Shown: positions 2,726-17,802 of the stretch, in pieces
How the letters are laid out: each line of letters starts with the position of its first letter
Position numbering within the stretch: the stretch's first letter is position 1
Source: Paraglaciecola arctica BSs20135
GTDB lineage: Bacteria; Pseudomonadota; Gammaproteobacteria; Enterobacterales; Alteromonadaceae
Assembly: GCF_000314995.1 (NCBI RefSeq)
Contig: NZ_BAEO01000052.1
Span: forward strand, 1-64,000
Direction: 5' to 3'
DNA: 64,000 bases
Notes under the pieces: model-generated
Databases searched by the model: none
Seen by the model: only the letters and a program-made list of their open reading frames with translations
Told to the model about the DNA's origin: nothing
Program-made: the position numbers and the translations under genes

Positions 2726-4015
2726 TTATTTTACCGCATCAAGCGCCTGACTGACATCGGCAATGATATCGTCAATATTTTCGATACCCACTGATATTCT
2801 AACTAGGTCTTCGCTGACACCCGCTTTGGCTAGTTCTTCTGGGTTGAGTTGCCTGTGGGTAGTTGATGCAGGATGACAGGCTAGGGATTTAGCGTCGCCT
2901 ATGTTGACCAGTCTTAAGATCATTTGTAAGGCATCGATAAACTGACCGCCAGCCACTTTACTTGACGATTCGGCGCTAGTTTTTATACCAAAACTTAAAA
3001 TACCCGATGCTTTGCCAGCAGTGATCTTTTGGCAAGTGGCTTGGTAGGGGCTGTCTGGTAGGGCTGCATAATTAACCCAACTTACTTTAGGGTGAGCCGT
3101 TAAATACGCCGCTAGTTTTTCAGCATTTTCACAATGGCGTTCCATACGTAAGCCCAATGTCTCAAGGCCCATCAAAATATTGAATGAGTTAGTTGGCGAA
3201 ATAGCTGCGCCAGTGTTACGTAGCGGTGCCACGCGACAACGACCTATATAAGCTGCAGCACCAAGTGCCTCAGTGTAGACCACGCCGTGATACGACGGAT
3301 CAGGTTGGTTTAAAACCGGGAAACGTTCTTTGTTAGCCACCCAATCAAATTTACCTGAGTCTACAATTATGCCGCCAATAGAGGTGCCATGACCGCCAAT
3401 GTATTTGGTTAATGAATGAATAACGATGGCTGCGCCATGTTCGAATGGACGACATAAAAATGGGGTGGCAACTGTGTTATCAACAATCAGAGGTACACCG
3501 TGCTTGGCGCCGATTTCAGCAAGTTTTTGTAAATCCACAACATTGCCAGCAGGGTTACCAATAGACTCACAGAAAATAGCTTTGGTATTTTTATCAATGG
3601 CGGCTTCAAAGGCGGCATAGTCGTCACCGGCAATCATGCGTGCTTCTATACCTTGATTCGGTAGCGCATGAGCGAATAAATTGTAAGTCCCACCATATAG
3701 CTGACTGGTGCTGACAATATTGTCTCCTACGGAACAAATACACTGAATCGCGTAAGTGATCGCCGCCATACCCGATGCAACGGCTAACGCAGCTATCCCA
3801 CCTTCCATAGCGGCAATGCGTTCTTCAAGCACGGCTGTGGTTGGGTTCATGATCCGCGTGTAGATATTCCCGGGTACTTTTAGATCGAATAGATCTGCAC
3901 CATGTTGAGTGTTGTCAAAGGTATAAGACGTAGTTTGGTAAATCGGTACCGCCGCGGCTTTGGTGGTTTCTTCTGAAGTGTAACCATGGTGTAAAGCTAA
4001 GGATTCTAGTTTCAT
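2726..4015 (-). CDS. metY: O-acetylhomoserine aminocarboxypropyltransferase (sulfhydrylase)
   Basis: PLP enzyme of the Cys/Met-metabolism family. It makes homocysteine from O-acetylhomoserine and sulfide (direct sulfhydrylation for methionine). Visible features are the YTRIMNPT motif binding the PLP phosphate, IVDNTVATP (PLP-ring aspartate) and HSLTKYIGGHG with the Schiff-base lysine. Length is typical (429 aa). I place the start at the internal ATG at 4015 because AAGGAA lies about 9 bases upstream and MKLESLALHHGY is the usual N-terminus. An ATG 48 bases further upstream is in frame but less well supported. It is a single gene with no other methionine genes nearby. I see no convincing MetJ box or SAM riboswitch. 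O-acetylserine activity is also possible in this family. Confidence 0.93.
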   Translation of the reverse strand: MKLESLALHHGYTSEETTKAAAVPIYQTTSYTFDNTQHGADLFDLKVPGNIYTRIMNPTTAVLEERIAAMEGGIAALAVASGMAAITYAIQCICSVGDNIVSTSQLYGGTYNLFAHALPNQGIEARMIAGDDYAAFEAAIDKNTKAIFCESIGNPAGNVVDLQKLAEIGAKHGVPLIVDNTVATPFLCRPFEHGAAIVIHSLTKYIGGHGTSIGGIIVDSGKFDWVANKERFPVLNQPDPSYHGVVYTEALGAAAYIGRCRVAPLRNTGAAISPTNSFNILMGLETLGLRMERHCENAEKLAAYLTAHPKVSWVNYAALPDSPYQATCQKITAGKASGILSFGIKTSAESSSKVAGGQFIDALQMILRLVNIGDAKSLACHPASTTHRQLNPEELAKAGVSEDLVRISVGIENIDDIIADVSQALDAVK

Positions 4016-4153
4016 GTCGAGTCTGTTCCTTGTTGATTGGATTTTTTTTAATACATCAACCATAGCCCTTTGTCTCTGGTGAGTTCAAACATAAGTGTTT
4101 AAATTTATTGGTCTTATTTGGAATAAGGTATATGTCTAATAATATAATTAAGC

Positions 4154-7953: not shown

Positions 7954-8493
7954 ATGCCGCTCAGTATTAATGAATTTGGATTGGGTGATCCTCTCGCCCA
8001 ATTCAAGGTGTATATCGCCAATAGGCCTGATTTTTCTAACTATTCTAGTCTAGACTCCTCGGTTAACCCTCTGTCATCAGGGGAAATACATGCAATAGGT
8101 CAAGCTTGTGGAAACGGTTGGCGCAAGGTGTTTAACGTCTATGCCAAACTAGTATTTGCTCTAAATGCTGAATCCATAGTGCCTTTGCAAGAAACACTAA
8201 GTTGGCAAAAGTTTCGTGACCATGTTTTATTGCAACATTCTTCCAACACCAGTTTACTATTTTCGCCCCCAGCAATTTCTAAGGTTAAAGATAAAGACCG
8301 CCATGTTGTTCACATTGTCATGGGAAGAACCTATGCTAAATCACTCAATTTAAGTCATTCATTAAAATGGCTAGATCATGAGTTTGCTTTAGATATGGAA
8401 AACAAGATATTGGTCTGCCCTTATTTTGACTATCGCCAGTTATCGAATATTAAAATAATACGCCTTGTAGAATTGATAAAACAAATCCGCTAA
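7954..8493 (+). CDS. Conserved protein of unknown function, coupled to the DUF2750 gene
   Basis: A 179-residue soluble protein with no recognisable catalytic motif, signal peptide or membrane segment. Its ATG follows directly on the TAG of the DUF2750 gene, suggesting one operon and translational coupling. Features seen are GQACGNGWRKVFNVYAKL in the first half and HIVMGRTYAKSL then LVCPYFDYRQLSN near the end, which look conserved and enzyme-like. It may correspond to a DUF (DUF6942-like) family of Alteromonadales, but I am not certain. Confidence 0.62.
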   Translation: MPLSINEFGLGDPLAQFKVYIANRPDFSNYSSLDSSVNPLSSGEIHAIGQACGNGWRKVFNVYAKLVFALNAESIVPLQETLSWQKFRDHVLLQHSSNTSLLFSPPAISKVKDKDRHVVHIVMGRTYAKSLNLSHSLKWLDHEFALDMENKILVCPYFDYRQLSNIKIIRLVELIKQIR

Positions 8494-8514
8494 GAAAATA
8501 TCAATATTAAAAAA

Positions 8515-8548
8515 GCACCAACTTAGTGCGTTTGCACTTGTTTGGCTT
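8515..8548 (+). promoter_or_regulatory. NtrC-like enhancer pair upstream of nasT
   Basis: First dyad GCACCAACTTAGTGC (8515-8529) fits the NtrC pattern GCAC-N7-GTGC. A second, degenerate site GCACTTGTTTGGCTT (8534-8548) has its centre 19 bp further on. The first centre is 102 bp from the -12 G of the sigma-54 element, the same geometry as at the other two nitrate promoters. That NtrC binds is inference. Confidence 0.7.
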
Positions 8549-8610
8549 AGTTAAACACATCCAAATTTTATGAATATATTTAACTAGTTGATATATATGG
8601 GTATTAAATT

Positions 8611-8626
8611 TGGCTTGTGGCTTGCT
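8611..8626 (+). promoter_or_regulatory. Sigma-54 (-24/-12) promoter of nasTS
   Basis: TGGCTTGTGGCTTGCT matches the sigma-54 consensus TGGCACG-N4-TTGCW with the GG and GC elements exactly 12 bases apart. Transcription would start near 8636, giving a very short leader before nasT, with no room for an attenuator. Confidence 0.72.
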
Positions 8627-8653
8627 AAAGCTTTGTCATAACAGTTCTTGATT

Positions 8654-9289
8654 ATGGTTTGGAAAGAAAGTTTGCAACATACCGCTTTATCTACAAAACA
8701 AATAAACGCGACACCAGAATTGCGTATTTTGTTGATTGATGAAAATCGCCAAAGAGCGGAGTCTTTAACCTCAGCTTTAAATAACTCTCGATACAAAATA
8801 AGTCACTTAGCTAATCCTGACATGTCATTGCTAAAGCAAGTTGATCAAATTCAGCCAGATATTATTGTGATTGATATTGAATCTCCGAGTCGAGACATGT
8901 TAGAAAGTTTAGGTACCATTTCTCACTACAATCCTAAACCAGTGGTGATGTTTTCTGGTGAAGGGGATACCGACACTATCAATCAGTATATTGAGTCTGG
9001 GGTCAGTGCCTATGTAGTGGGTGATTTGCAAACCGAGCGAGTTAAACCAATATTGGATGCTGCCGTTGCACGTTTCCGCGAATTTCAAAAACTAAAAGAA
9101 GAGTTAAGTGATACTAAGCAGCAATTAGTTTCCCGTAATCTGATTGATCAAGCTAAACGACTGTTAATGAAAAAAAAGAACCTATCGGAAGACGATGCTT
9201 TTAAGGCTATGCGTAATACCGCCATGAATACAGGGCAAAAGTTAGACGATGTAGCAAAAACACTTATCTCTTTACTCAACACTATTTAA
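8654..9289 (+). CDS. nasT: NasT, ANTAR-domain antitermination response regulator for nitrate assimilation
   Basis: RNA-binding antiterminator that lets RNA polymerase read through leader terminators of nitrate genes. A response-regulator receiver-like domain (LRILLIDENRQRAESL to about residue 140) is followed by a linker helix and an ANTAR domain at about 150-205 (LIDQAKRLLMKKKNLSEDDAFKAMRNTAMNTG). In known systems NasS, a nitrate-binding protein, sequesters NasT until nitrate binds. nasS lies 17 bases downstream. The start is ambiguous: a TTG at 8648 is in frame with the ATG at 8654, and neither has a clear Shine-Dalgarno. I prefer ATG. Two candidate RNA targets occur in this window, before the NNP transporter and before nrtA. 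Confidence 0.9.
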   Translation: MVWKESLQHTALSTKQINATPELRILLIDENRQRAESLTSALNNSRYKISHLANPDMSLLKQVDQIQPDIIVIDIESPSRDMLESLGTISHYNPKPVVMFSGEGDTDTINQYIESGVSAYVVGDLQTERVKPILDAAVARFREFQKLKEELSDTKQQLVSRNLIDQAKRLLMKKKNLSEDDAFKAMRNTAMNTGQKLDDVAKTLISLLNTI

Positions 9290-9306
9290 GGTATTAGGTC
9301 AAAAGT

Positions 9307-10416
9307 ATGATTGAGCCTGAACAAACAGATTTAACCCTAGGGTTTATACCACTAACTGATTCGGCACCATTAATTGTGGCCAAAGAATTAGGTTTTTTTA
9401 GCCAGTGGGGACTAAATGTTAGCTTACAGAAACAGAACTCATGGGCAACCTTAAGGGATAAATTACACGCTGGATTGTTAGACGCTACACAAATGTTAGC
9501 TCCTATGCCGATAGCCAGCACATTAGGTTTAGGCTGTCCCAAAGTTAAAGTTATTACTCCTTTGGTGCTTAGCCTAAATGGTAACGCCATCACTTTGTCA
9601 GAAAAGTTACATCAAGAAATCTTGCAAGAAAATAACATTGCTCATGTGACTTTGCCTCTGGCTGCCTATTTATTGCAAAAAGTTATTAGTGTACGAAAGA
9701 TGCAAAACCGCCCGAAATTGAAATTTGCCACTGTGTTTCCATATAGCTGTCATTATTATCAGGTTAGAGATTGGTTGGCTTCGGCTAATATTTCTGAAGA
9801 AGACTTGGACATTGTGGTTGTGCCTCCTGTAAATATGGTGGCCTTCTTACAAAGTGGTGAAATTGATGGTTGTTGTGTCGGTGGACCTTGGAACGCCAAA
9901 GCGGTCAGAGCGGGTATTGGATTAACCGCATTAACATCATTTGATATATGGCAAGATAGTCCTGAAAAAGTATTGGGACTGCTAGCTAGTTTTCAGCAGG
10001 CTAATCCGAACACTGTATTAGCATTAACGGCTGCATTAAAACAAGCTTGTATCTGGTTGGAAAATATTCCTAATCGATTTGAGGCTGCACGTCTCTTAAG
10101 TTCAGATCAGTATTTGGACGCTTCTGTTGATGTGATTGCACCATCACTAATTGGCAGTTGTTTAACTCATATCTCGTTGCCACCTCGTGCTATTCCTTCA
10201 TATAATCAGTTTTCCAAATCTAATAATGGCTCAATTAATGTGCCTGAGTATATTCGAGGAGAATGGTTAATCAGCCAAATGGCCAAAGCAGGACAGCTAA
10301 AAAATATTGATGTGCCTGCAGATATAGTCAGAGAAGTATTCAGGCCAGATATCTATCAACAAATGCGCCTTAAGCTCGAAGACCAAGCTGTGCAATTCTT
10401 TCGTCGCTCGGGTTGA
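9307..10416 (+). CDS. nasS: NasS, cytoplasmic nitrate/nitrite sensor (NrtA-like)
   Basis: Homologous to the periplasmic nitrate-binding protein NrtA encoded at 14449 (shared patterns LGFIPLTDSAPL / [29 protein letters not shown]-like IDGCCVGGPWN) but with no signal peptide, so it should stay in the cytoplasm. This is the hallmark of NasS, which holds NasT inactive without nitrate. The gene follows nasT after 17 bases and has AGGT before its ATG. 369 aa, normal for NasS. Which anion it binds cannot be read here. Confidence 0.88.
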   Translation: MIEPEQTDLTLGFIPLTDSAPLIVAKELGFFSQWGLNVSLQKQNSWATLRDKLHAGLLDATQMLAPMPIASTLGLGCPKVKVITPLVLSLNGNAITLSEKLHQEILQENNIAHVTLPLAAYLLQKVISVRKMQNRPKLKFATVFPYSCHYYQVRDWLASANISEEDLDIVVVPPVNMVAFLQSGEIDGCCVGGPWNAKAVRAGIGLTALTSFDIWQDSPEKVLGLLASFQQANPNTVLALTAALKQACIWLENIPNRFEAARLLSSDQYLDASVDVIAPSLIGSCLTHISLPPRAIPSYNQFSKSNNGSINVPEYIRGEWLISQMAKAGQLKNIDVPADIVREVFRPDIYQQMRLKLEDQAVQFFRRSG

Positions 10417-10431
10417 TAAAGTTCTGAGGCG

Positions 10432-10466
10432 GCACCAGTCTGGTGCGACACGCACTTTGTTGGTGT
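10432..10466 (+). promoter_or_regulatory. NtrC-like enhancer pair upstream of the NNP nitrate transporter
   Basis: GCACCAGTCTGGTGC (10432-10446) is a perfect NtrC-type dyad. GCACTTTGTTGGTGT (10452-10466) is one base from one. Centres are 20 bp apart, and the first is 103 bp from the -12 G of the sigma-54 element. They begin only 16 bases after the nasS stop. The first site could also form a small hairpin, but no T-run follows. Confidence 0.8.
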
Positions 10467-10528
10467 GTGAGTGAGATGTTTTTAGTATCTTTCTTTTTTA
10501 ACTTGTTGAATTATAGCATTATTATTTT

Positions 10529-10544
10529 TGGCATTGTTTCTGCT
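10529..10544 (+). promoter_or_regulatory. Sigma-54 promoter of the NNP nitrate transporter
   Basis: TGGCATTGTTTCTGCT has GG and GC 12 bases apart as sigma-54 requires. The predicted start is near 10554, producing a leader of about 165 nt that contains the ANTAR-type hairpins and terminator. Confidence 0.72.
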
Positions 10545-10616
10545 TTCTATCAAATAGTGAAACCTAATCCAAACGCATATTTTGGGTTAACCTAAATAAA
10601 AAGTTTAAAAACTATT

Positions 10617-10692
10617 GCTGCGATTAATTATAGCAGCGCGGCAATGTAGCCCATAATGACTGAGTGTCCTCAGTCATTATGGGTTTTTTTTT
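10617..10692 (+). promoter_or_regulatory. NasT (ANTAR) responsive leader with intrinsic terminator
   Basis: Hairpin P1 pairs GCTGC (10617-10621) with GCAGC (10633-10637). P2 is GGC-AATGTA-GCC (10640-10651), whose six-base loop has A at 1 and G at 4 as in ANTAR target RNAs. Immediately overlapping P2 by two bases is a terminator: a 15-bp stem 10650-10664 with 10669-10683, loop TGTC, then nine T. P2 and the full terminator are therefore mutually exclusive. The P1 loop here does not fit the A1/G4 rule. The same arrangement recurs before nrtA. Confidence 0.8.
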
Positions 10693-10721
10693 AACAATTT
10701 TTCCTTTACTGAGTATTACAA

Positions 10722-12188
10722 ATGAGTGTTGATAAATTTAACTTGTTGTCCTTCACCGGCAAAATGAAAACCCTACATTTGTCATGGATGGCATTTTTTA
10801 TCACTTTTATGGTGTGGTTTAACATGGCGCCACTTAAAGGTGCAATAGTCGATGGTGTAGGTCTTACATTAAGCGAATGGAAAACGTTATTGATCATCAA
10901 TGTGGCATTGACTATTCCAGCTAGGGTCATTATTGGTGCGCTGACTGATAAGTTTGGTCCTCGTTTAGTGTATTCAAGTTTGTTAGCTATTTGTTCTATT
11001 CCTTGTTTTGCCTTTGCTTTAGCGGATAGTTTTACTCAGTTAGTGATTGCCCGGTTTGCATTAGGTTGTATCGGTGCGGGTTTTGTTGTCGGTATTCGAA
11101 TGGTTAGCGAATGGTTTCCACCAAAAGAACTCGGCACAGCCGAAGGCGTATATGGTGGTTGGGGTAACTTCGGATCGGCCGCTGCCGCCTTTACTTTGCC
11201 TACGTTAGCCTTGTTATTTGGTGGTGAAGATGGGTGGCGGTATGCTGTGGCGATTACCGGTCTTATGAGTTTGTTGTTTTCGGTTGTATATTATAAAAAC
11301 ACTAATGACACCCCTAAAGGTTCGACTTATTTTCGTCCTAAAAATTTAGGTGGCTTAGAAGTCACCAGTGTTAAAGATTTTTACTTTTTGTTGATAATGA
11401 AAACGCCTATGTATTTGGCTCTCGCTTTACTTAATTGGAAGTTATCGCCACAAGGTGTGTCATTGTTAAGTGAAACTGTGGCTTTAGTGATGTATTTAGG
11501 GTTGGCGTTGTTATATGTCTATGACTGCTATGCGACTTATAAAGTAAATAAAGATATTTTTGTGAACCCTGTACCTGAAGCACACCGTTATGAGTTTAAG
11601 CAAGTGGCAGTATTGAATATATTGTATTTTGCTACTTTTGGCTCTGAATTAGCCGTAGTGTCTATGTTACCCGCATTTTTCGCTGAAACATTTGAACTTA
11701 GTATGGCCACTGCAGGTATGTTGGCTGGCATGTATGCCTTTATGAATTTAATGTCTCGCCCTGGTGGCGGCTGGTTATCAGACAAATTTGGCCGTAAAAA
11801 AACTTTGCTCATTTTGACAGCAGGACTTGCCTTAGGGTATTGGTGTTTGAGTCTAATTGATGCAGCTTGGCCGATTTGGTTAGCCGTTGTGGCAGTGATG
11901 GCTTGTTCGTTCTTTGTGCAGTCTGGTGAAGGCGCAGTATTTGCTGCAGTCCCCTTAATTAAGCGTCGATTAACCGGTCAAATCGCTGGTATGACAGGTG
12001 CTTATGGCAACGTTGGGGCAGTGGTGTATTTGACTGTGTATTCATTGGTTGATACCTCTACTTTCTTTTTAGTCATAGCTTGCACCGCTGTATTAGGCTT
12101 TGTCACTTTGCTCTTTATGCAAGAGCCTAAAGGCACTATGACTGAAGTGCGTGAGGACGGTAGTGTTGAATTAATAGAGGTAACCTAG
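10722..12188 (+). CDS. narK: NNP-family nitrate/nitrite MFS transporter
   Basis: Inner-membrane nitrate (or nitrate/nitrite) transporter of the major facilitator superfamily. Seen: about 12 hydrophobic helices, the NNP signature [13 protein letters not shown] near residue 145, a substrate-region arginine in [17 protein letters not shown] (with the MFS motif A) and the second-half counterpart [12 protein letters not shown]. It is 488 aa, slightly longer than NarK, with an expanded hydrophobic central region (residues ~220-290), as in assimilatory-type members. It is the first gene after the NasT leader and is followed by a terminator. Some would name it nasA by analogy with Pseudomonas. Specificity for nitrate is inferred from the regulation and neighbours. 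Confidence 0.9.
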
Positions 12189-12243
12189 CGGGTTATCTAG
12201 AGTGCGTTACCAACGCCGTATTTGACAATAAATCTACAGGATG

Positions 12244-12276
12244 AAAAGGATAACAATCAACCTGTTATCCTTTTTT
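12244..12276 (+). terminator. Intrinsic terminator after the NNP transporter
   Basis: Stem AAAAGGATAACA with TGTTATCCTTTT followed by TTTTTTA, 55 bases after the transporter stop codon. The kinase/phosphatase gene at 12320 therefore depends on readthrough or its own promoter. Confidence 0.82.
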
Positions 12277-12319
12277 ATTGGATAATCATTTTTAGTTTGC
12301 TGCAACAAAGTGAGTCAAA

Positions 12320-14032
12320 GTGGAAAAGTTAGAACTAACATTTGGTGGTTTTTCTAGTCAGGGTCTTAAGTCTGAGAATCAAGATGCATTTGCCGCTTAT
12401 TTACCTTCTGACAACCGCTCAGTGTCGCAAGGTGGTGCTGCCGCCATTGCCGATGGTGTGAGTGTTTGTACCCGTGCTCGAGAAGCAGCTATCACCTGTG
12501 TTACGAACTTTATTCAGGACTATTATCAAACTCCAGCAACCTGGACAGTCAAACGTGCAACCGGTCAAGTGTTACGTGGTTTAAATCGATGGTGCCACGG
12601 TCAACATGACTATGAACAAGGTGGGCATAGCCAAATGGTGACCACTTTTAGTGGTATGGTGTTTAAGTCAACAACAGGCTTTATTTTACACTGCGGTGAT
12701 AGCCGTATTAGTCGCTTGCAAAATGGCGAGTTCGAACAACTGACGACTGAGCATGTTTCCCGTCAAGGCGGCAGAAATGTGCTAACTCGCGCTATCGGCA
12801 TAGAGTCACATCTAGATGTGGACTTCGGCACTGTTGAGCTACAAGTGGGTGACTTGTATATTTTTACCTCTGACGGTGTACATGAATTTTTATCCACTAA
12901 AGTATTGCAAAAACTACTGAGTATTGAGGTAGGTAGCTTAGAGAGCATTTCTAAGAATATTGTCGATGCAGCACTAAAAGCGGGCAGTGACGATAACTTA
13001 ACCTGTTTGTTAGTCAGAGTGAAAGCATTGGCCGATGCTAGTTTAGACGAACATTATCGACAGATTAACCGATTGGCTATGCCACCGGCTTTAGAAGTGG
13101 GCATGAAATTAGAAGGCTATAGGGTGCTGCAGACAGTGTTTAATGGCACGCGCAGCAGTTTATACAAGGTCATAAACGAGAAAGATAACAAAGTATACGG
13201 TTTGAAAACGCCGTCTCAGTATTTTGCCGATGATCCTGTATATCTAAGTGGTTTTTTACGGGAAGAGTGGGTAGGCCAGCACATTAAACATCACAATGTG
13301 ATGGGCATATTTAAACGTAGTGAAGATGCTAAGTTTATGTACCACATTTGTGAGTATATCGAGGGGCAAACATTGCGCCAATGGATGCTGGATAATCCAC
13401 AGCCGAATCTTGAACAAGTACGTAACATTATTAGCCAACTCATTACTGCTTTACGGGTGTTGCAACGTAAAGATATGGTTCATAGGGATGTTAAACCAGA
13501 AAATGTGATGATCACCCACCAAGGTGAAGTGAAACTCATCGATTTTGGTACGGTATTGGTCAATGCATTGGCCGAAACAAACTCATTACCTGAAGAACAA
13601 ATCGCCGTTGGCTCGGTAGATTACATTGCCCCTGAATATCTGCTCACGCAAAAAAGTGATCACCAAAGTGATATGTTTTCATTGGCTGTAGTTATTTACG
13701 AAATGTTATGTGGCAAGTTGCCTTTTAAAGCTTTTAAATATCAAGACTACATACCTGCATCTTATACCGAGTGGGAATATCAGGCCATCAGTAAATATCG
13801 TACGGACTTACCGCAATGGGTTGATCTGACGTTACGTAAAGCCTTACAACCCAATCCAAAGCAAAGATACCAAGCCTTTTCTGAGTTGTTGGTTGATATG
13901 TCTAAACCTAACAAAAGTATGCTCAAGGCTATAGAAAATCAACCCTTGCTAGAACGTGATCCTTTGTTGTTTTATAAAGGAGTATGTGTGATTCAGATGT
14001 TAGTGATAGTAAGTTTATTGTTTATAGTTTAA
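12320..14032 (+). CDS. Bifunctional PP2C phosphatase / Ser-Thr protein kinase
   Basis: Two signalling domains in one 570 aa chain. Residues ~1-240 form a PPM/PP2C phosphatase with all metal motifs: SENQDAF, AIADGVS, TSDGVHEF and SDDNLTC. Residues ~265-530 form a eukaryotic-type kinase: a glycine-loop region RVLQTVFNGTRSSLYKV, the lysine in VYGLKTP, HRDVKPEN near 388, DFG near 408 and the APE motif in YIAPEY. The end has one hydrophobic helix (GVCVIQMLVIVSLLFIV), so it is probably anchored to the inner membrane. GTG start. A similar kinase gene sits beside nasA and nirB in Pseudomonas aeruginosa, so a link to nitrate assimilation is likely. The targets are unknown. Confidence 0.9.
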   Translation: MEKLELTFGGFSSQGLKSENQDAFAAYLPSDNRSVSQGGAAAIADGVSVCTRAREAAITCVTNFIQDYYQTPATWTVKRATGQVLRGLNRWCHGQHDYEQGGHSQMVTTFSGMVFKSTTGFILHCGDSRISRLQNGEFEQLTTEHVSRQGGRNVLTRAIGIESHLDVDFGTVELQVGDLYIFTSDGVHEFLSTKVLQKLLSIEVGSLESISKNIVDAALKAGSDDNLTCLLVRVKALADASLDEHYRQINRLAMPPALEVGMKLEGYRVLQTVFNGTRSSLYKVINEKDNKVYGLKTPSQYFADDPVYLSGFLREEWVGQHIKHHNVMGIFKRSEDAKFMYHICEYIEGQTLRQWMLDNPQPNLEQVRNIISQLITALRVLQRKDMVHRDVKPENVMITHQGEVKLIDFGTVLVNALAETNSLPEEQIAVGSVDYIAPEYLLTQKSDHQSDMFSLAVVIYEMLCGKLPFKAFKYQDYIPASYTEWEYQAISKYRTDLPQWVDLTLRKALQPNPKQRYQAFSELLVDMSKPNKSMLKAIENQPLLERDPLLFYKGVCVIQMLVIVSLLFIV

Positions 14033-14133
14033 GGCTTGATATATATGAACTGTAATCGAATGGCTTCCGGCATATTATTAATAACACGTGCAGTTAATAG
14101 CCTTGCTCACCATAGTAGTAATAGTACATATCA
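14033..14133. other. Start of the 416-base intergenic region before nrtA
   Basis: The intergenic region 14033-14448 has no gene. Its first 100 bases show nothing specific. The rest holds the NtrC-like sites, a sigma-54 promoter and the NasT leader, listed separately. Confidence 0.6.
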
Positions 14134-14168
14134 GCACAAGCATTGTGCATTATGCACCATTTTGATAA
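14134..14168 (+). promoter_or_regulatory. NtrC-like enhancer pair upstream of nrtA
   Basis: GCACAAGCATTGTGC (14134-14148) fits GCAC-N7-GTGC exactly. GCACCATTTTGATAA (14154-14168) keeps the left half and centre of the classic glnA-type site but has a weak right half. Centres are 20 bp apart. The first lies 104 bp from the -12 G of the sigma-54 element. Confidence 0.76.
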
Positions 14169-14231
14169 ATCCCAATAACCAATCAAAAAACAATTTAAAC
14201 TTAAGTTACTGATATTGTTGAATATAAAAGT

Positions 14232-14247
14232 TGGCACTATAGATGCA
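14232..14247 (+). promoter_or_regulatory. Sigma-54 promoter of nrtABC
   Basis: TGGCACTATAGATGCA is a near-consensus -24/-12 element (TGGCAC at -24, TGCA at -12, GG-GC distance 12). The predicted transcript start is near 14257, giving a leader of about 190 nt. Confidence 0.8.
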
Positions 14248-14345
14248 AAGTAATATTTGAACATGTTTCATACTAATTTAAAGAATGATCGTTGTTTTAT
14301 AACTAGAAAGCGTTAAGCGCTCTAAAATTTATTTCGAACTGGTAT

Positions 14346-14428
14346 TTTCACAGTGTTGTGAGATGGCAGTGAGGCAATGCAGCCCGCAAAGATTTTCCGT
14401 GTCCTGGAATCTTTGCGGGTTTTTTTTT
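14346..14428 (+). promoter_or_regulatory. NasT (ANTAR) responsive leader with intrinsic terminator before nrtA
   Basis: P1 is TTTCAC-AGTGTT-GTGAGA (14346-14363) and P2 is GGC-AATGCA-GCC (14373-14384). Both have six-base loops with A at 1 and G at 4, the ANTAR target rule. The terminator stem (14383-14394 with 14408-14419, extendable in the loop) shares its first two bases with P2 and is followed by nine T. NasT binding would favour P1/P2 and disrupt the terminator. This is inference from the known ANTAR mechanism. Confidence 0.85.
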
Positions 14429-14448
14429 GGAAAAAATCGGAGTAGGAA

Positions 14449-15852
14449 ATGATTAATATAAAGTTACTAAGTTCGTTGAAGCTTGCTGTTAAATCACTCC
14501 GTATGGGCGTGATATCAACAGTGGTGACGGGGGCTGTAATAACTTCAGGCGTATCAGCCAAAGAGTTAGGTTATGCCGAAAAAGAAGAATTGAAATTTGG
14601 TTTTATTAAATTAACTGATATGGCACCACTTGCAGTCGCTTATGAAAAAGGCTATTTCGAAGATGAGGGCCTTTATGTGACCCTTGAAGCACAAGCTAAC
14701 TGGAAAGTATTGCTCGATAGGGTAATTGATGGGCAGCTAGATGGCGCTCATATGTTGGCTGGTCAACCTTTAGGTGCAACCATAGGTTACGGTACTAAAG
14801 CAGATATCATTACAGCCTTTAGCATGGACTTAAACGGCAATGCGATCACTGTTTCCAATGACATTTGGAAAGAAATGAAAAAGCATGTTCCTCACGAAGG
14901 AGGAAAGCCTGTTCACCCAATCTCAGCAGATTCACTTAAGCCCGTAGTAGACGATTTCAAAAGTAAAGGGAAGGCTTTCAAAATGGGTATGGTATTCCCT
15001 GTGTCTACCCACAACTATGAATTACGTTATTGGTTAGCTGCCGGTGGTATTCATCCGGGCTTTTATGCGCCGCATAAAGGTGATACTAGTGGCCAAATTG
15101 ACGCAGATGCCTTGTTATCTGTTACACCTCCACCACAAATGCCATCCACTATGGAAGCAGGCACGATTAACGGTTATTGCGTAGGTGAGCCTTGGAACCA
15201 GCAAGCTGTATTTAAAGGTATTGGTGTGCCAGTCGTAACAGATTACGAAATTTGGAAAGATAACCCTGAAAAAGTGTTTGGTGTAAGCAAGGGGTGGGCT
15301 GAACAAAATCCTAATACACATATTCGTGTGGTGAAAGCGATGATCAGAGCTGCTATGTGGTTAGATGAAAACAATAATGCTAACCGTCCAGAAGCAGTGA
15401 AAATCCTAGCTAAAAGTCAATATGTTGGTGCGGATTACGATGTGATCGCTAACAGTATGACGGGGACCTTTGAGTACGAGAAAGGTGACAAACGTGCTGT
15501 GCCTGACTTCAATGTGTTTTTTCGTTACAACGCGACTTATCCCTTTTATAGCGATGCTATTTGGTACTTGACTCAAATGCGCCGTTGGGGGCAGATCTCG
15601 GAGCCTAAAGCCGATTCTTGGTATAAAGATATAGCTAAACAAGTTTACCGTCCTGATATTTATGCTGAAGCTGCTAGGGCTTTAATCGCAGAGGGCAAAG
15701 CTAAGGCGGTTGATTTCCCTGAGTTTGCAACAGAAACCGGTTTCAAACCTAGTCAGACACACTTTATAGACAATATTGTGTATGACGGTAGCCAACCTAA
15801 TGCCTATTTAGAAAAGTTTGCTATTGGTCTTAAGAATGACAGCAAAATCTAA
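14449..15852 (+). CDS. nrtA: NrtA-type periplasmic nitrate-binding protein
   Basis: Solute-binding component of an ABC nitrate importer (NrtA/NasF/CmpA family). A signal peptide covers about residues 1-37 (hydrophobic [13 protein letters not shown], likely cleavage after VSA). The mature part carries the family patterns [51 protein letters not shown] and [15 protein letters not shown]. 467 aa, typical. It begins the nrtABC-porin run and is controlled by the sigma-54 promoter and NasT leader upstream. A hairpin just after it probably keeps its message more abundant than that of the permease. Nitrate rather than bicarbonate, cyanate or nitrite is inferred from the regulation. Confidence 0.92.
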
Positions 15853-15887: not shown

Positions 15888-15904
15888 AGCGTGGAGTGTT
15901 TCAA

Positions 15905-16894
15905 ATGAGCAAACAACAAGCGGTTCCTATGATTTTTAACCAAGTTAGACAGATGAACTGGCCAACTCTTAATCAATTTTTGAGTGCTACAGCCCTACCT
16001 ATTGTAGGAATAGTGGTGTTCCTTGGGTTATGGAGCTTAATGGCAAAGAATATTGATACTTCTTTAGGCAGTTTCCCAGGGCCTGCCGCTGTATGGCAGC
16101 AAGCGAATGTCTTAGTAGGGGAACACAATGCGCAGATGGATAAAGCTGATAAGTTTTATGAACGTCAAGATGAGCGCAATGCTGTTCGGGTTGCCAAAGA
16201 CCCCAGTTACGAGCCTAAAATCAGAAATTTTACTGGTGCGCCGACTTTCTTTGAGCAAATTTGGACCAGTTTATACACCGTGATGGTGGGATTTATTGTG
16301 GCTTCATTGTTAGCCATTCCAATAGGGATTTTATGTGGGTTAAGTAAAAATGCTTATACCGCTATTAATCCTTTGATTCAGCTATTCAAGCCAGTATCAC
16401 CTTTAGCTTGGTTGCCTTTAGTGACTATGGTGGTTAGTGCGGTGTATGTGAGCACCGATCCCATGTTTTCTAAATCATTTATTACCTCAGCCGTAACTGT
16501 TTCATTGTGTTGTTTGTGGCCAACTTTAATTAATACTGCTGTTGGTGTGTCTAGTATCGATAAAGACTTACTTAACGTAAGTAAAGTACTGCGTCTTAAT
16601 GCCTGGTCCCATGTGATGAAGATTGTATTGCCTTCTTCTATACCGGCAATATTTACAGGTCTTCGTTTGTCACTGGGGATTGGCTGGATGGTGCTGATTG
16701 CTGCGGAAATGCTCGCGCAGAATCCTGGTCTAGGCAAATTTGTTTGGGATGAATTTCAAAACGGCAGTTCCGAATCTTTAGCCCGTATCATGGTGGCAGT
16801 CTTAACTATTGGTGTTATTGGCTTTGCGTTAGACAGGTTAATGTTAGCGCTACAGAGAAAGTTTAGTTGGGACAAGAGTGCGGTATTGCGTTAA
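15905..16894 (+). CDS. nrtB: NrtB-type nitrate ABC transporter permease
   Basis: Inner-membrane permease of the NrtB/SsuC/TauC group. About six hydrophobic helices, a first helix near residue 30 followed by a ~70-residue periplasmic stretch, and the EAA-type loop in the second half (VSKVLRLNAWSHVMKIVLPSSIPAIFTGLRLSLG). An in-frame GTG at 15896 would add three residues. I choose the ATG at 15905 because GGAG lies 8 bases before it. It pairs with nrtA and nrtC on the same strand. Length 329 aa is normal for the family. Confidence 0.9.
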   Translation: MSKQQAVPMIFNQVRQMNWPTLNQFLSATALPIVGIVVFLGLWSLMAKNIDTSLGSFPGPAAVWQQANVLVGEHNAQMDKADKFYERQDERNAVRVAKDPSYEPKIRNFTGAPTFFEQIWTSLYTVMVGFIVASLLAIPIGILCGLSKNAYTAINPLIQLFKPVSPLAWLPLVTMVVSAVYVSTDPMFSKSFITSAVTVSLCCLWPTLINTAVGVSSIDKDLLNVSKVLRLNAWSHVMKIVLPSSIPAIFTGLRLSLGIGWMVLIAAEMLAQNPGLGKFVWDEFQNGSSESLARIMVAVLTIGVIGFALDRLMLALQRKFSWDKSAVLR

Positions 16895-16944: not shown

Positions 16945-17802
16945 ATGAGTAACAAACATCATTTAGAGTTGACACAAGTAGGGATGGATTTCCCCACACC
17001 TAAGGGCCCTTTTAACGCTTTGCAAGACGTTAACTTGCGTATCAATAAAGGTGAATTTATTTCATTGATCGGTCACTCTGGTTGCGGAAAATCGACGGTT
17101 TTGAATATTGTCGCTGGTTTATATAAAGCGACTAAAGGTGGGGTGATTTTAGATAACCAAGAAGTCAATGAGCCCGGGCCAGAGCGAGCCGTTGTATTTC
17201 AAAATCACTCGTTATTGCCTTGGTTAAGCGCCTATAAAAACGTTGAGTTGGCGGTTAAACAAACTCAAAACGGTCGCTCAAAAAAAGAGATGAAAGAGTG
17301 GGTAGAGCATAATCTTGAATTGGTGCATATGAGTCACGCTGCTGACAAATTACCCGCAGAAATTTCAGGTGGTATGAAACAACGGGTGGGTATAGCCAGA
17401 GCATTAGCAATGGAACCAAAAGTTTTGCTGATGGATGAACCTTTTGGGGCGCTGGATGCATTAACACGGGCCCATCTGCAGGACTCTGTTATGGAGATCC
17501 ATGCAAAGTTAGGTAATACCGTGATTATGATTACTCATGATGTGGATGAAGCTGTACTACTTTCAGATCGAATTGTGATGATGACCAACGGCCCTGCGGC
17601 GACTATTGGCGAGATTTTGCCAATAGAGTTAGCTAGACCAAGAAATCGTATCGAATTGGCCGATAACCCTCAATACAATCACTATCGTCATGAAGTGCTG
17701 AAGTTCTTATACGAAAAACAACGCAAAGTTGAATCTGTTGAAGAACACCGTAAAAAGCAATCTGAACAAAAGTCGGGAGCGACACAAATAAATGTGGCCT
17801 AG
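16945..17802 (+). CDS. nrtC: Nitrate ABC transporter ATP-binding protein (NrtC/NrtD type)
   Basis: Cytoplasmic ATPase that powers the nrtAB importer. Walker A GHSGCGKST, Q-loop VVFQNHSLLPW, signature SGGMKQR, Walker B VLLMDEPFGALDA and switch histidine in ITHDVDEA are all intact. It is a single-domain protein of 285 aa without the NrtA-like C-terminal domain of cyanobacterial NrtC, so it resembles NrtD/NasD. Start set at the ATG at 16945, with GAGG 8 bases upstream. The frame is open further upstream but has no ribosome binding site there. 50 bases after nrtB. Confidence 0.92.
   Translation: MSNKHHLELTQVGMDFPTPKGPFNALQDVNLRINKGEFISLIGHSGCGKSTVLNIVAGLYKATKGGVILDNQEVNEPGPERAVVFQNHSLLPWLSAYKNVELAVKQTQNGRSKKEMKEWVEHNLELVHMSHAADKLPAEISGGMKQRVGIARALAMEPKVLLMDEPFGALDALTRAHLQDSVMEIHAKLGNTVIMITHDVDEAVLLSDRIVMMTNGPAATIGEILPIELARPRNRIELADNPQYNHYRHEVLKFLYEKQRKVESVEEHRKKQSEQKSGATQINVA

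Follow-up and report, generated by a model that had tools for sequence, protein, structure and literature searches.

Predicted NtrC/sigma-54 promoters of common geometry and NasT-type attenuator leaders in the nitrate assimilation cluster of Paraglaciecola arctica

The NasS-NasT pair of Azotobacter and Pseudomonas controls a nitrate or nitrite reductase operon by antitermination. At the Escherichia coli promoter glnHp2, which is activated by NtrC, a DNA bend made by integration host factor (IHF) lies between the activator sites and the sigma-54 promoter. In Paracoccus, the NasS-NasT complex is reported to dissociate on nitrate, NasT then binding leader RNA (PMC3795266), and mutation of an NtrC site before nasT is reported to abolish induction (PMC5424462). 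A survey from 2025 predicted sigma-54 promoters for a protein group including NasT, mainly in beta- and gammaproteobacteria (PMC12316311), and IHF is described as commonly acting at RpoN promoters (PMC7962754). Here we analyse the nitrate gene cluster in a 64,000-nucleotide stretch of Paraglaciecola arctica BSs20135 (assembly GCF_000314995.1, contig NZ_BAEO01000052.1, positions 1 to 64,000; hereafter the window), in which nasT and nasS are followed by the transporter gene nrtP, a gene for a PP2C-phosphatase/Ser-Thr-kinase fusion and the transporter genes nrtABC. Judging from its sequence, this cluster is very probably an AND gate built of known kinds of parts, in which nitrogen limitation starts transcription and nitrate lets transcription finish.

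Three sigma-54 elements with GG and GC 12 base pairs (bp) apart lie on the forward strand upstream of nasT (8611-8626, TGGCTTGTGGCTTGCT), nrtP (10529-10544, TGGCATTGTTTCTGCT) and nrtA (14232-14247, TGGCACTATAGATGCA), exactly where the initial annotation had placed them. Each is preceded on the same strand by two predicted NtrC sites, the first of which is a perfect GCAC-N7-GTGC dyad, found at 8515-8529 (GCACCAACTTAGTGC) for nasT, 10432-10446 (GCACCAGTCTGGTGC) for nrtP and 14134-14148 (GCACAAGCATTGTGC) for nrtA, with centres 102, 103 and 104 bp from the -12 G, respectively. The second is a half site, at 8534-8548 for nasT, 10452-10466 (GCACTTTGTTGGTGT) for nrtP and 14154-14168 for nrtA, centred 83, 83 and 84 bp from the same G. 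The centres of the two sites are therefore 19, 20 and 20 bp apart and, like the distances of the first dyads, these positions and spacings agree with those given earlier.

A comparison of the promoter loops by eye brought out a further shared word. Scored against WATCAANNNNTTR, which we take to be the IHF consensus, it is a 9/9 match in the nasT promoter (8581-8593, TAACTAGTTGATA) and an 8/9 match in those of nrtP (10499-10511, TAACTTGTTGAAT) and nrtA (14202-14214, TAAGTTACTGATA). All three predicted IHF sites are on the reverse strand, in one orientation, and each has its centre exactly 37 bp upstream of the -12 G. The genome encodes IHF alpha (ihfA, 164.2 bits, above cut-off), so that both marks of an IHF-assisted sigma-54 promoter, a consensus site between enhancer and promoter and IHF, here its alpha subunit, are present. 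The layout is a predicted NtrC-NtrC-IHF-sigma-54 module, whose IHF site had been overlooked in the initial annotation.

We searched the organism's own assembly (5,964,456 bases in 72 contigs) for this arrangement. The strict joint pattern, GCAC-N7-GTGC followed after 70-100 bases by TGGC-N8-TGC, has four matches genome-wide, three of which are the nasT, nrtP and nrtA promoters, while the fourth (C42:99363-99484) lies within an open reading frame (ORF). About 0.06 matches are expected from base composition and the reversed pattern has none, which bears out the earlier argument that chance would not give three such layouts. With a looser sigma-54 part and a spacer of 60-90 bases there are five matches, namely the three nas promoters, the promoter of glnA (C66) and one site inside an ORF on C46, against one control match per strand; all matches outside ORFs thus belong to nitrogen genes. 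The glnA promoter of P. arctica, an NtrC/sigma-54 promoter in its own right, has NtrC-type sites at 135, 116 and 95 bp. The regulators that the initial annotation had presupposed are both encoded: ntrC (743.8 bits), which adjoins ntrB and glnA and is the only one of 18 matches of more than 240 bits to the ntrC model to exceed the curated cut-off, and rpoN (510.6 bits, above cut-off). Single NtrC sites were useless as a genome-wide target finder, as TGCAC-N7-GTGCA with up to two mismatches gave 1494 matches per strand and its reversed form 958; the perfect single sites on C8 and C49 were not accompanied by a sigma-54 element at the thresholds applied.

Two of the three promoters lead into a predicted NasT-type attenuator. 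These leaders, at 10598-10689 before nrtP (56.8 bits with our RNA model R1) and 14331-14425 before nrtA (77 bits), both on the forward strand and both part of the model's training set, follow the predicted sigma-54 start and precede the coding sequence. Each has a P2 hairpin of the form GGC-AATGNA-GCC whose 3' half opens an intrinsic terminator, the ANTAR arrangement known from eut, amiE and nasF (PMC3369931). The same source characterises such leaders by P1 and P2 hexaloops with A1 and G4 and by overlap of P2 with an intrinsic terminator (PMC3369931). The nrtA leader shows all of these features, with P1 at 14348-14361 (loop AGTGTT), P2 at 14373-14384 (GGC-AATGCA-GCC) and the terminator at 14382-14420, whereas the nrtP leader shows P2 (10640-10651, GGC-AATGTA-GCC) and the terminator that it overlaps (10649-10684), its P1 being atypical. 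No such element was found in the approximately 36 bases between the predicted start and the start codon of nasT.

We collected 41 leaders with a P2 regular expression fixing GGCA..G..GCC, and the invariance of the P2 columns is therefore imposed by the selection. Alignment A3 holds 37 of them, some with extended 3' ends (L060, L079, L080 and L096, cut short, were omitted). RNAalifold did not find P1; it was set by hand from the alignment and its pairs were then counted, a procedure that favours P1 on the measure of cells paired. In the 37 leaders, 90.0% of cells were paired, compared with 74.2% in shuffles and 26-50% when the alignment was slid, the covariation score was 0.452 (0.169 in shuffles) and both-sided changes occurred in 75 cells (23.7 in shuffles), none of 500 shuffles reaching any of these values. 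A search of positions 8400-14600 of the window, which take in both leaders, against Rfam gave no match at E up to 1; no Rfam family of NasT leaders is known to us, and such a match is not one of their defining features.

Searching the genome with R1 at E up to 1, where 150 of 1959 first-look candidates were scored and further leaders are possible, returned three leaders. Two are those of nrtA and nrtP; the third, which scores 36.8 bits and lies some 40 bases ahead of nirB on contig C6, is the only one that had not been used for training. The nirB promoter was thus reached through its leader, independently of the promoter pattern. A sigma-54-like element (TGGCATAATTTCTGTA) lies 181 bases before the nirB start codon, preceded by NtrC-type sites at 103 and 84 bp and an IHF-type site (8/9) at 37 bp. 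Because NtrC-type sites scoring at least 13 occur by chance at only 0.16% of positions, their presence at both expected places is unlikely to be accidental. Downstream of nirB, on the same strand, are genes for a molybdopterin oxidoreductase and a tetrapyrrole methylase.

In order to follow the layout in relatives we used 80 named loci fetched with NasT, the best 80 of 154. At a joint sigma-54 and NtrC score of at least 34, in upstream windows of up to 480 bp and with the P. arctica window counted in each set, a predicted promoter was seen before nasT in 26/79 loci, before nrtP in 8/10 and before nrtA in 35/53, compared with 0.25%, 0% and 0.09% in shuffles and with 0/65 and 0/50 in the control regions upstream of nasS and nrtB. 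Of the 12 loci named Paraglaciecola, 11 show a nasT promoter site at either 102-103 or 83-84 bp, L050 being the exception. We also picked 90 promoters by sigma-54 score alone, leaving 81 after removal of near-copies. An NtrC site scoring at least 14 lies at 81-88 or 102-108 bp in 46 of these (0.66 on average, and never more than 3, in 50 shuffles). In the 25 promoters where both sites are seen, the spacing between them is 18-22 bp, and the stronger of the two is site 1 in 18. A perfect IHF match is found in the loop of 14 promoters (0.85 expected) and a match of at least 8/9 in 44 (14.6 expected). In the nas orientation, 36 of 42 such matches lie at 37-39 bp, whereas the 12 in the opposite orientation are scattered. 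A bend by IHF at a fixed place would explain the rigid spacing in the nas promoter family.

Taken together, these parts suggest the following wiring for P. arctica, every step of which we infer. On nitrogen limitation, phosphorylated NtrC would bind the strong dyad and the weaker site two helical turns away, IHF would bend the DNA at a fixed place between the NtrC sites and the promoter, and NtrC would open the sigma-54 promoters of nasTS, nrtP-kinase, nrtABC and nirB, the last with the downstream molybdopterin (nitrate) reductase gene; the motifs, their geometry, the presence of ntrC, rpoN and ihfA and the glnA promoter as a yardstick all point to this first step. Since nasTS has no detected leader, sensor and antiterminator would be produced under any nitrogen shortage. 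Transcripts of nrtP, nrtA and nirB would stop at the leader terminator unless nitrate or nitrite freed NasT from NasS, and the freed NasT would then hold the P1/P2 hairpins and let the polymerase pass, as leader structure and the biochemistry of NasS-NasT in Paracoccus lead us to expect. Since the nrtP and nrtA promoters, like that of nirB, are followed by a predicted NasT-type attenuator, full expression would not be expected from nitrogen limitation by itself. Joint control of the sensor, the antiterminator and both uptake systems by nitrogen limitation, as the initial annotation had predicted, is supported by the motifs, the geometry, ntrC and rpoN, the relatives and nirB, and that prediction was incomplete in lacking the IHF site and the nrtP and nrtA leaders. 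The fixed distances of 102-106, 83-86 and 37-39 bp probably reflect helical-face selection for a short, bent enhancer loop.

Several observations weigh against this AND-gate reading. The second NtrC sites keep a perfect left half, GCAC, and have degenerate right halves (GCTT for nasT, GTGT for nrtP, ATAA for nrtA), so that they are half sites and not the full dyads of the initial annotation, and the nirB promoter has GT instead of GC at -12 and no perfect dyad. At the glnA promoter of P. arctica no IHF match of at least 8/9 was found. Among relatives, only 26/79 nasT upstream regions reach the joint score of 34, many loci outside the Alteromonadaceae having no convincing site, and some control regions do reach it (porin 3/37, kinase 1/7). 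As for the leaders, the number of pairs with both-sided change (7/12) is not above that in shuffles (6.9), P1 of the nrtP leader (approximately 10617-10637) is atypical with its 11-nucleotide loop, and the P1/P2 region of that leader (10598-10655) folds into a competing hairpin (TTGCTGCG/CGCGGCAA). Moreover, no nrtP leader was found in L052, L054, L075 and L115.

It could also be that nasTS, nrtP-kinase and nrtABC are transcribed mainly from one upstream promoter, the attenuators being the true control and the inner sigma-54 sites adding little. The genes are all co-directional, and read-through would meet the leaders too. Nevertheless, the inner promoters recur in relatives with their own geometry, and the nrtA promoter is kept both beside nrtP and in many loci where no nrtP was detected nearby. 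Furthermore, where nrtP stands behind a porin gene (L075:14955-15169 and L115:14745-14959), a strong NtrC/sigma-54 promoter of its own lies at some 60 bp from the start of the gene. We therefore regard a single upstream promoter as improbable.

The spacing of the modules appears to follow a wider rule. The distances of NtrC sites in nas promoters have their maxima at 83-86, 93-98, 102-107, 113-118 and 127-129 bp, with a Rayleigh R of 0.56 at a period of 10.75 bp and 0.55 at 10.5 bp. Because nas promoters are related, we tested an unselected set, obtained from gammaproteobacterial genomes with the pattern TGCAC-N7-GTGC, 41-101 bases, TGGC-N7-TTGCW, to which the P. arctica window contributes nothing since its sites lack the required T flank. 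The first draw, of 369 genomes, yielded 71 matches spread over 58 of them, and the controls yielded none; R was 0.38 at 10.5 bp (p ~3e-5, reached by 2 of 5000 jittered sets), or 0.34 with one match per genome (n=58, p ~1e-3), and the phase agreed with that of the nas set within 0.6 bp. A second draw of 67 rows, from which 8 already present in the first were dropped, added 46 new gammaproteobacterial matches with R 0.52 (1 of 5000 jittered sets); its scan had three control matches, one of them in a gammaproteobacterium. The 25 matches of a smaller, earlier draw are all contained in the first and were not counted. The combined set (n=117) has R 0.43 (p ~4e-10, 0 of 5000 jittered sets), and 13 matches from other classes, excluded from this test, show no phase (R 0.13). 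Removal of look-alikes left 110 promoters, including 11 that may be coding since a reading frame stays open from end to end; the remaining 99 promoters (101 sites) give R 0.42 at 10.5 bp (p ~2e-8). A reverse-orientation IHF match at 35-40 bp occurs in only 8 of these 99 (shuffles gave 0.4 and never more than 4). The comb persists without the IHF-bearing promoters (92 sites, R 0.40), and IHF is thus not its general explanation.

From these distances we think it probable, if with less confidence than for the AND gate, that natural gammaproteobacterial NtrC enhancers lie on one helix face relative to their sigma-54 promoter, the distances from site centre to the -12 G forming a 10.5-bp comb (about 74, 85, 95, 106 and 116 bp) of which the layouts in the window would be one pair of teeth, locked at nas by the IHF bend at 37-39 bp. 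If so, activation by NtrC at natural short-loop promoters would depend on the face of the helix, unlike the position-tolerant picture drawn from glnALG. A review notes that helical facing may matter less at glnALG and that a two-site system was face-dependent (PMC7408454), and loop lengths about 11 bp apart are on record for 61 qrr enhancers driven by LuxO in Vibrio (PMC4740811). A spacing comb for NtrC itself was not found in print in the open-licence literature.

The comb also bears on the idea that the common geometry goes back to duplication of a single promoter instead of being maintained by selection. The three promoters do lie within one 6-kilobase cluster with related products, those of nasS and nrtA being homologous, and the loops of nasT and nrtA resemble each other slightly more than shuffled sequences do (0.48, with 19 of 1000 as high). 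However, the other two loop pairs are at the shuffled level, unrelated genera show distances of the same 10.5-bp comb, and relatives shift by about whole turns, with 95 or 115-116 bp instead of 105, all of which makes duplication an unlikely origin of the shared spacing. Least probable of the three alternatives is that the sigma-54 promoters are real and the dyads are bound by another enhancer-binding protein, since, for all the many NtrC-like activators encoded (the 18 matches mentioned above), the dyad matches the motif before the organism's own glnA, adjoining ntrBC, and the joint-pattern matches outside ORFs are all nitrogen genes.

The genes served by these promoters are all on the forward strand. 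The nasT gene (8672-9289) encodes a response-receiver and ANTAR antiterminator (PF03861, 63.9 bits; PF00072, 43.3 bits); its start was placed by alignment with relatives, the ORF itself opening at a TTG at 8648, and the nearest named loci, those of P. arctica A3R16 and the Paraglaciecola strain MB-3u-78, have NasT proteins of 90-91% identity. It is followed by nasS (9307-10416; PF13379, 253 bits), for its partner, a nitrate/nitrite sensor resembling a substrate-binding protein, so that the window contains the adjacent pair of ANTAR regulator and sensor that is one mark of a NasS-NasT system, in an order kept in most of the 80 loci. The nrtP product (10722-12188) is a NarK/NNP-type nitrate/nitrite transporter of the major facilitator superfamily (TIGR00886, 329.7 bits, cut-off 311.7), and the PP2C/kinase fusion (PF00069 and PF13672) is encoded at 12320-14032. 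The nitrate ATP-binding cassette transporter comprises a substrate-binding protein (nrtA, 14449-15852; PF13379, 327.8 bits), a permease (nrtB, 15896-16894; TIGR01183, 162 bits, under the cut-off of 209) and an ATPase (nrtC, ending at 17802; TIGR01184, 349 bits, above cut-off); a gene for a porin-like protein is also present in the nitrate gene set.

The PP2C/kinase gene stands after nrtP in six of the nine relatives in which nrtP was matched, a count in which the fetched loci L075 and L115 end just past nrtP. In the window the gap between the two genes (12189-12319) is 131 bp and contains a terminator-like hairpin (AAGGATAACA...TGTTATCCTTTTTT); in relatives it is 34-42 bp (four Paraglaciecola), 50 bp (L070) and 76 bp (L098). 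Only remnants of the PP2C-kinase lie between nasS and nrtA at L053:9722-10451, a locus with no nrtP match, which suggests that the nrtP-kinase cassette was lost there by deletion. The leaders vary as well. The competing hairpin in the nrtP leader of P. arctica could make it harder to open than the nrtA leader. In L052 (10184-10399) and L054 (9881-10096), nrtP has a sigma-54 element and no NasT leader was found even with filters off. Across loci, nrtP thus seems to acquire and lose its nitrate gate, which in these two was apparently lost or replaced. Just upstream of nrtA in L105 (approximately 3900-4027) and L107 (approximately 930-1023) there are P2 stems (GGACAANGGCGTCC) in which A1 and G4 are kept and the stem letters are changed, hinting at a second leader type.

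The AND-gate reading gives a testable wiring for nitrate assimilation in common marine bacteria, with a nitrogen-status input on every promoter, a nitrate input on the uptake and reductase transcripts and an ungated sensor. The four-part module of two NtrC sites, an IHF site and a sigma-54 element at near-fixed spacing would be a natural test of enhancer geometry, and the comb makes the helical-face question for NtrC enhancers experimentally simple and offers a prior on spacing in searches for NtrC targets. The parts are all of known kinds, and it is the rigid module and the wider spacing rule that could surprise a specialist.

Compared with E. coli glnHp2, the P. arctica pathway has one exact predicted IHF position at four of its promoters, conserved in relatives, and compared with NasS-NasT of Azotobacter and Pseudomonas its predicted targets also include an NNP transporter and the nrtABC transporter. 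The closest likeness is to nasTS-nasABGHC of Paracoccus denitrificans, for which the NasS-NasT nitrate switch, leader antitermination and an NtrC site before nasT are all described (PMC3795266, PMC5424462). According to those accounts, however, the NtrC site found there is the one before nasT, that of nasA being still unidentified (PMC3795266, PMC5424462), whereas in P. arctica each unit has a predicted NtrC/sigma-54 promoter and, unlike in Paracoccus as described, two transporters each have a predicted leader. The nasF operon of Klebsiella oxytoca is likewise reported to combine nitrogen regulation (Ntr) with nitrate-dependent antitermination at an ANTAR leader (PMC3369931, PMC5424462), but NasR is described as a one-protein NIT-ANTAR sensor, while in P. 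arctica the two-protein NasS-NasT would serve three transcripts. Finally, the qrr promoters of Vibrio share sigma-54 enhancer loop lengths about 11 bp apart and an NtrC-like activator, LuxO (PMC4740811); that published case concerns another activator and other genes, whereas the comb described here is one of NtrC-type sites across many Gammaproteobacteria.

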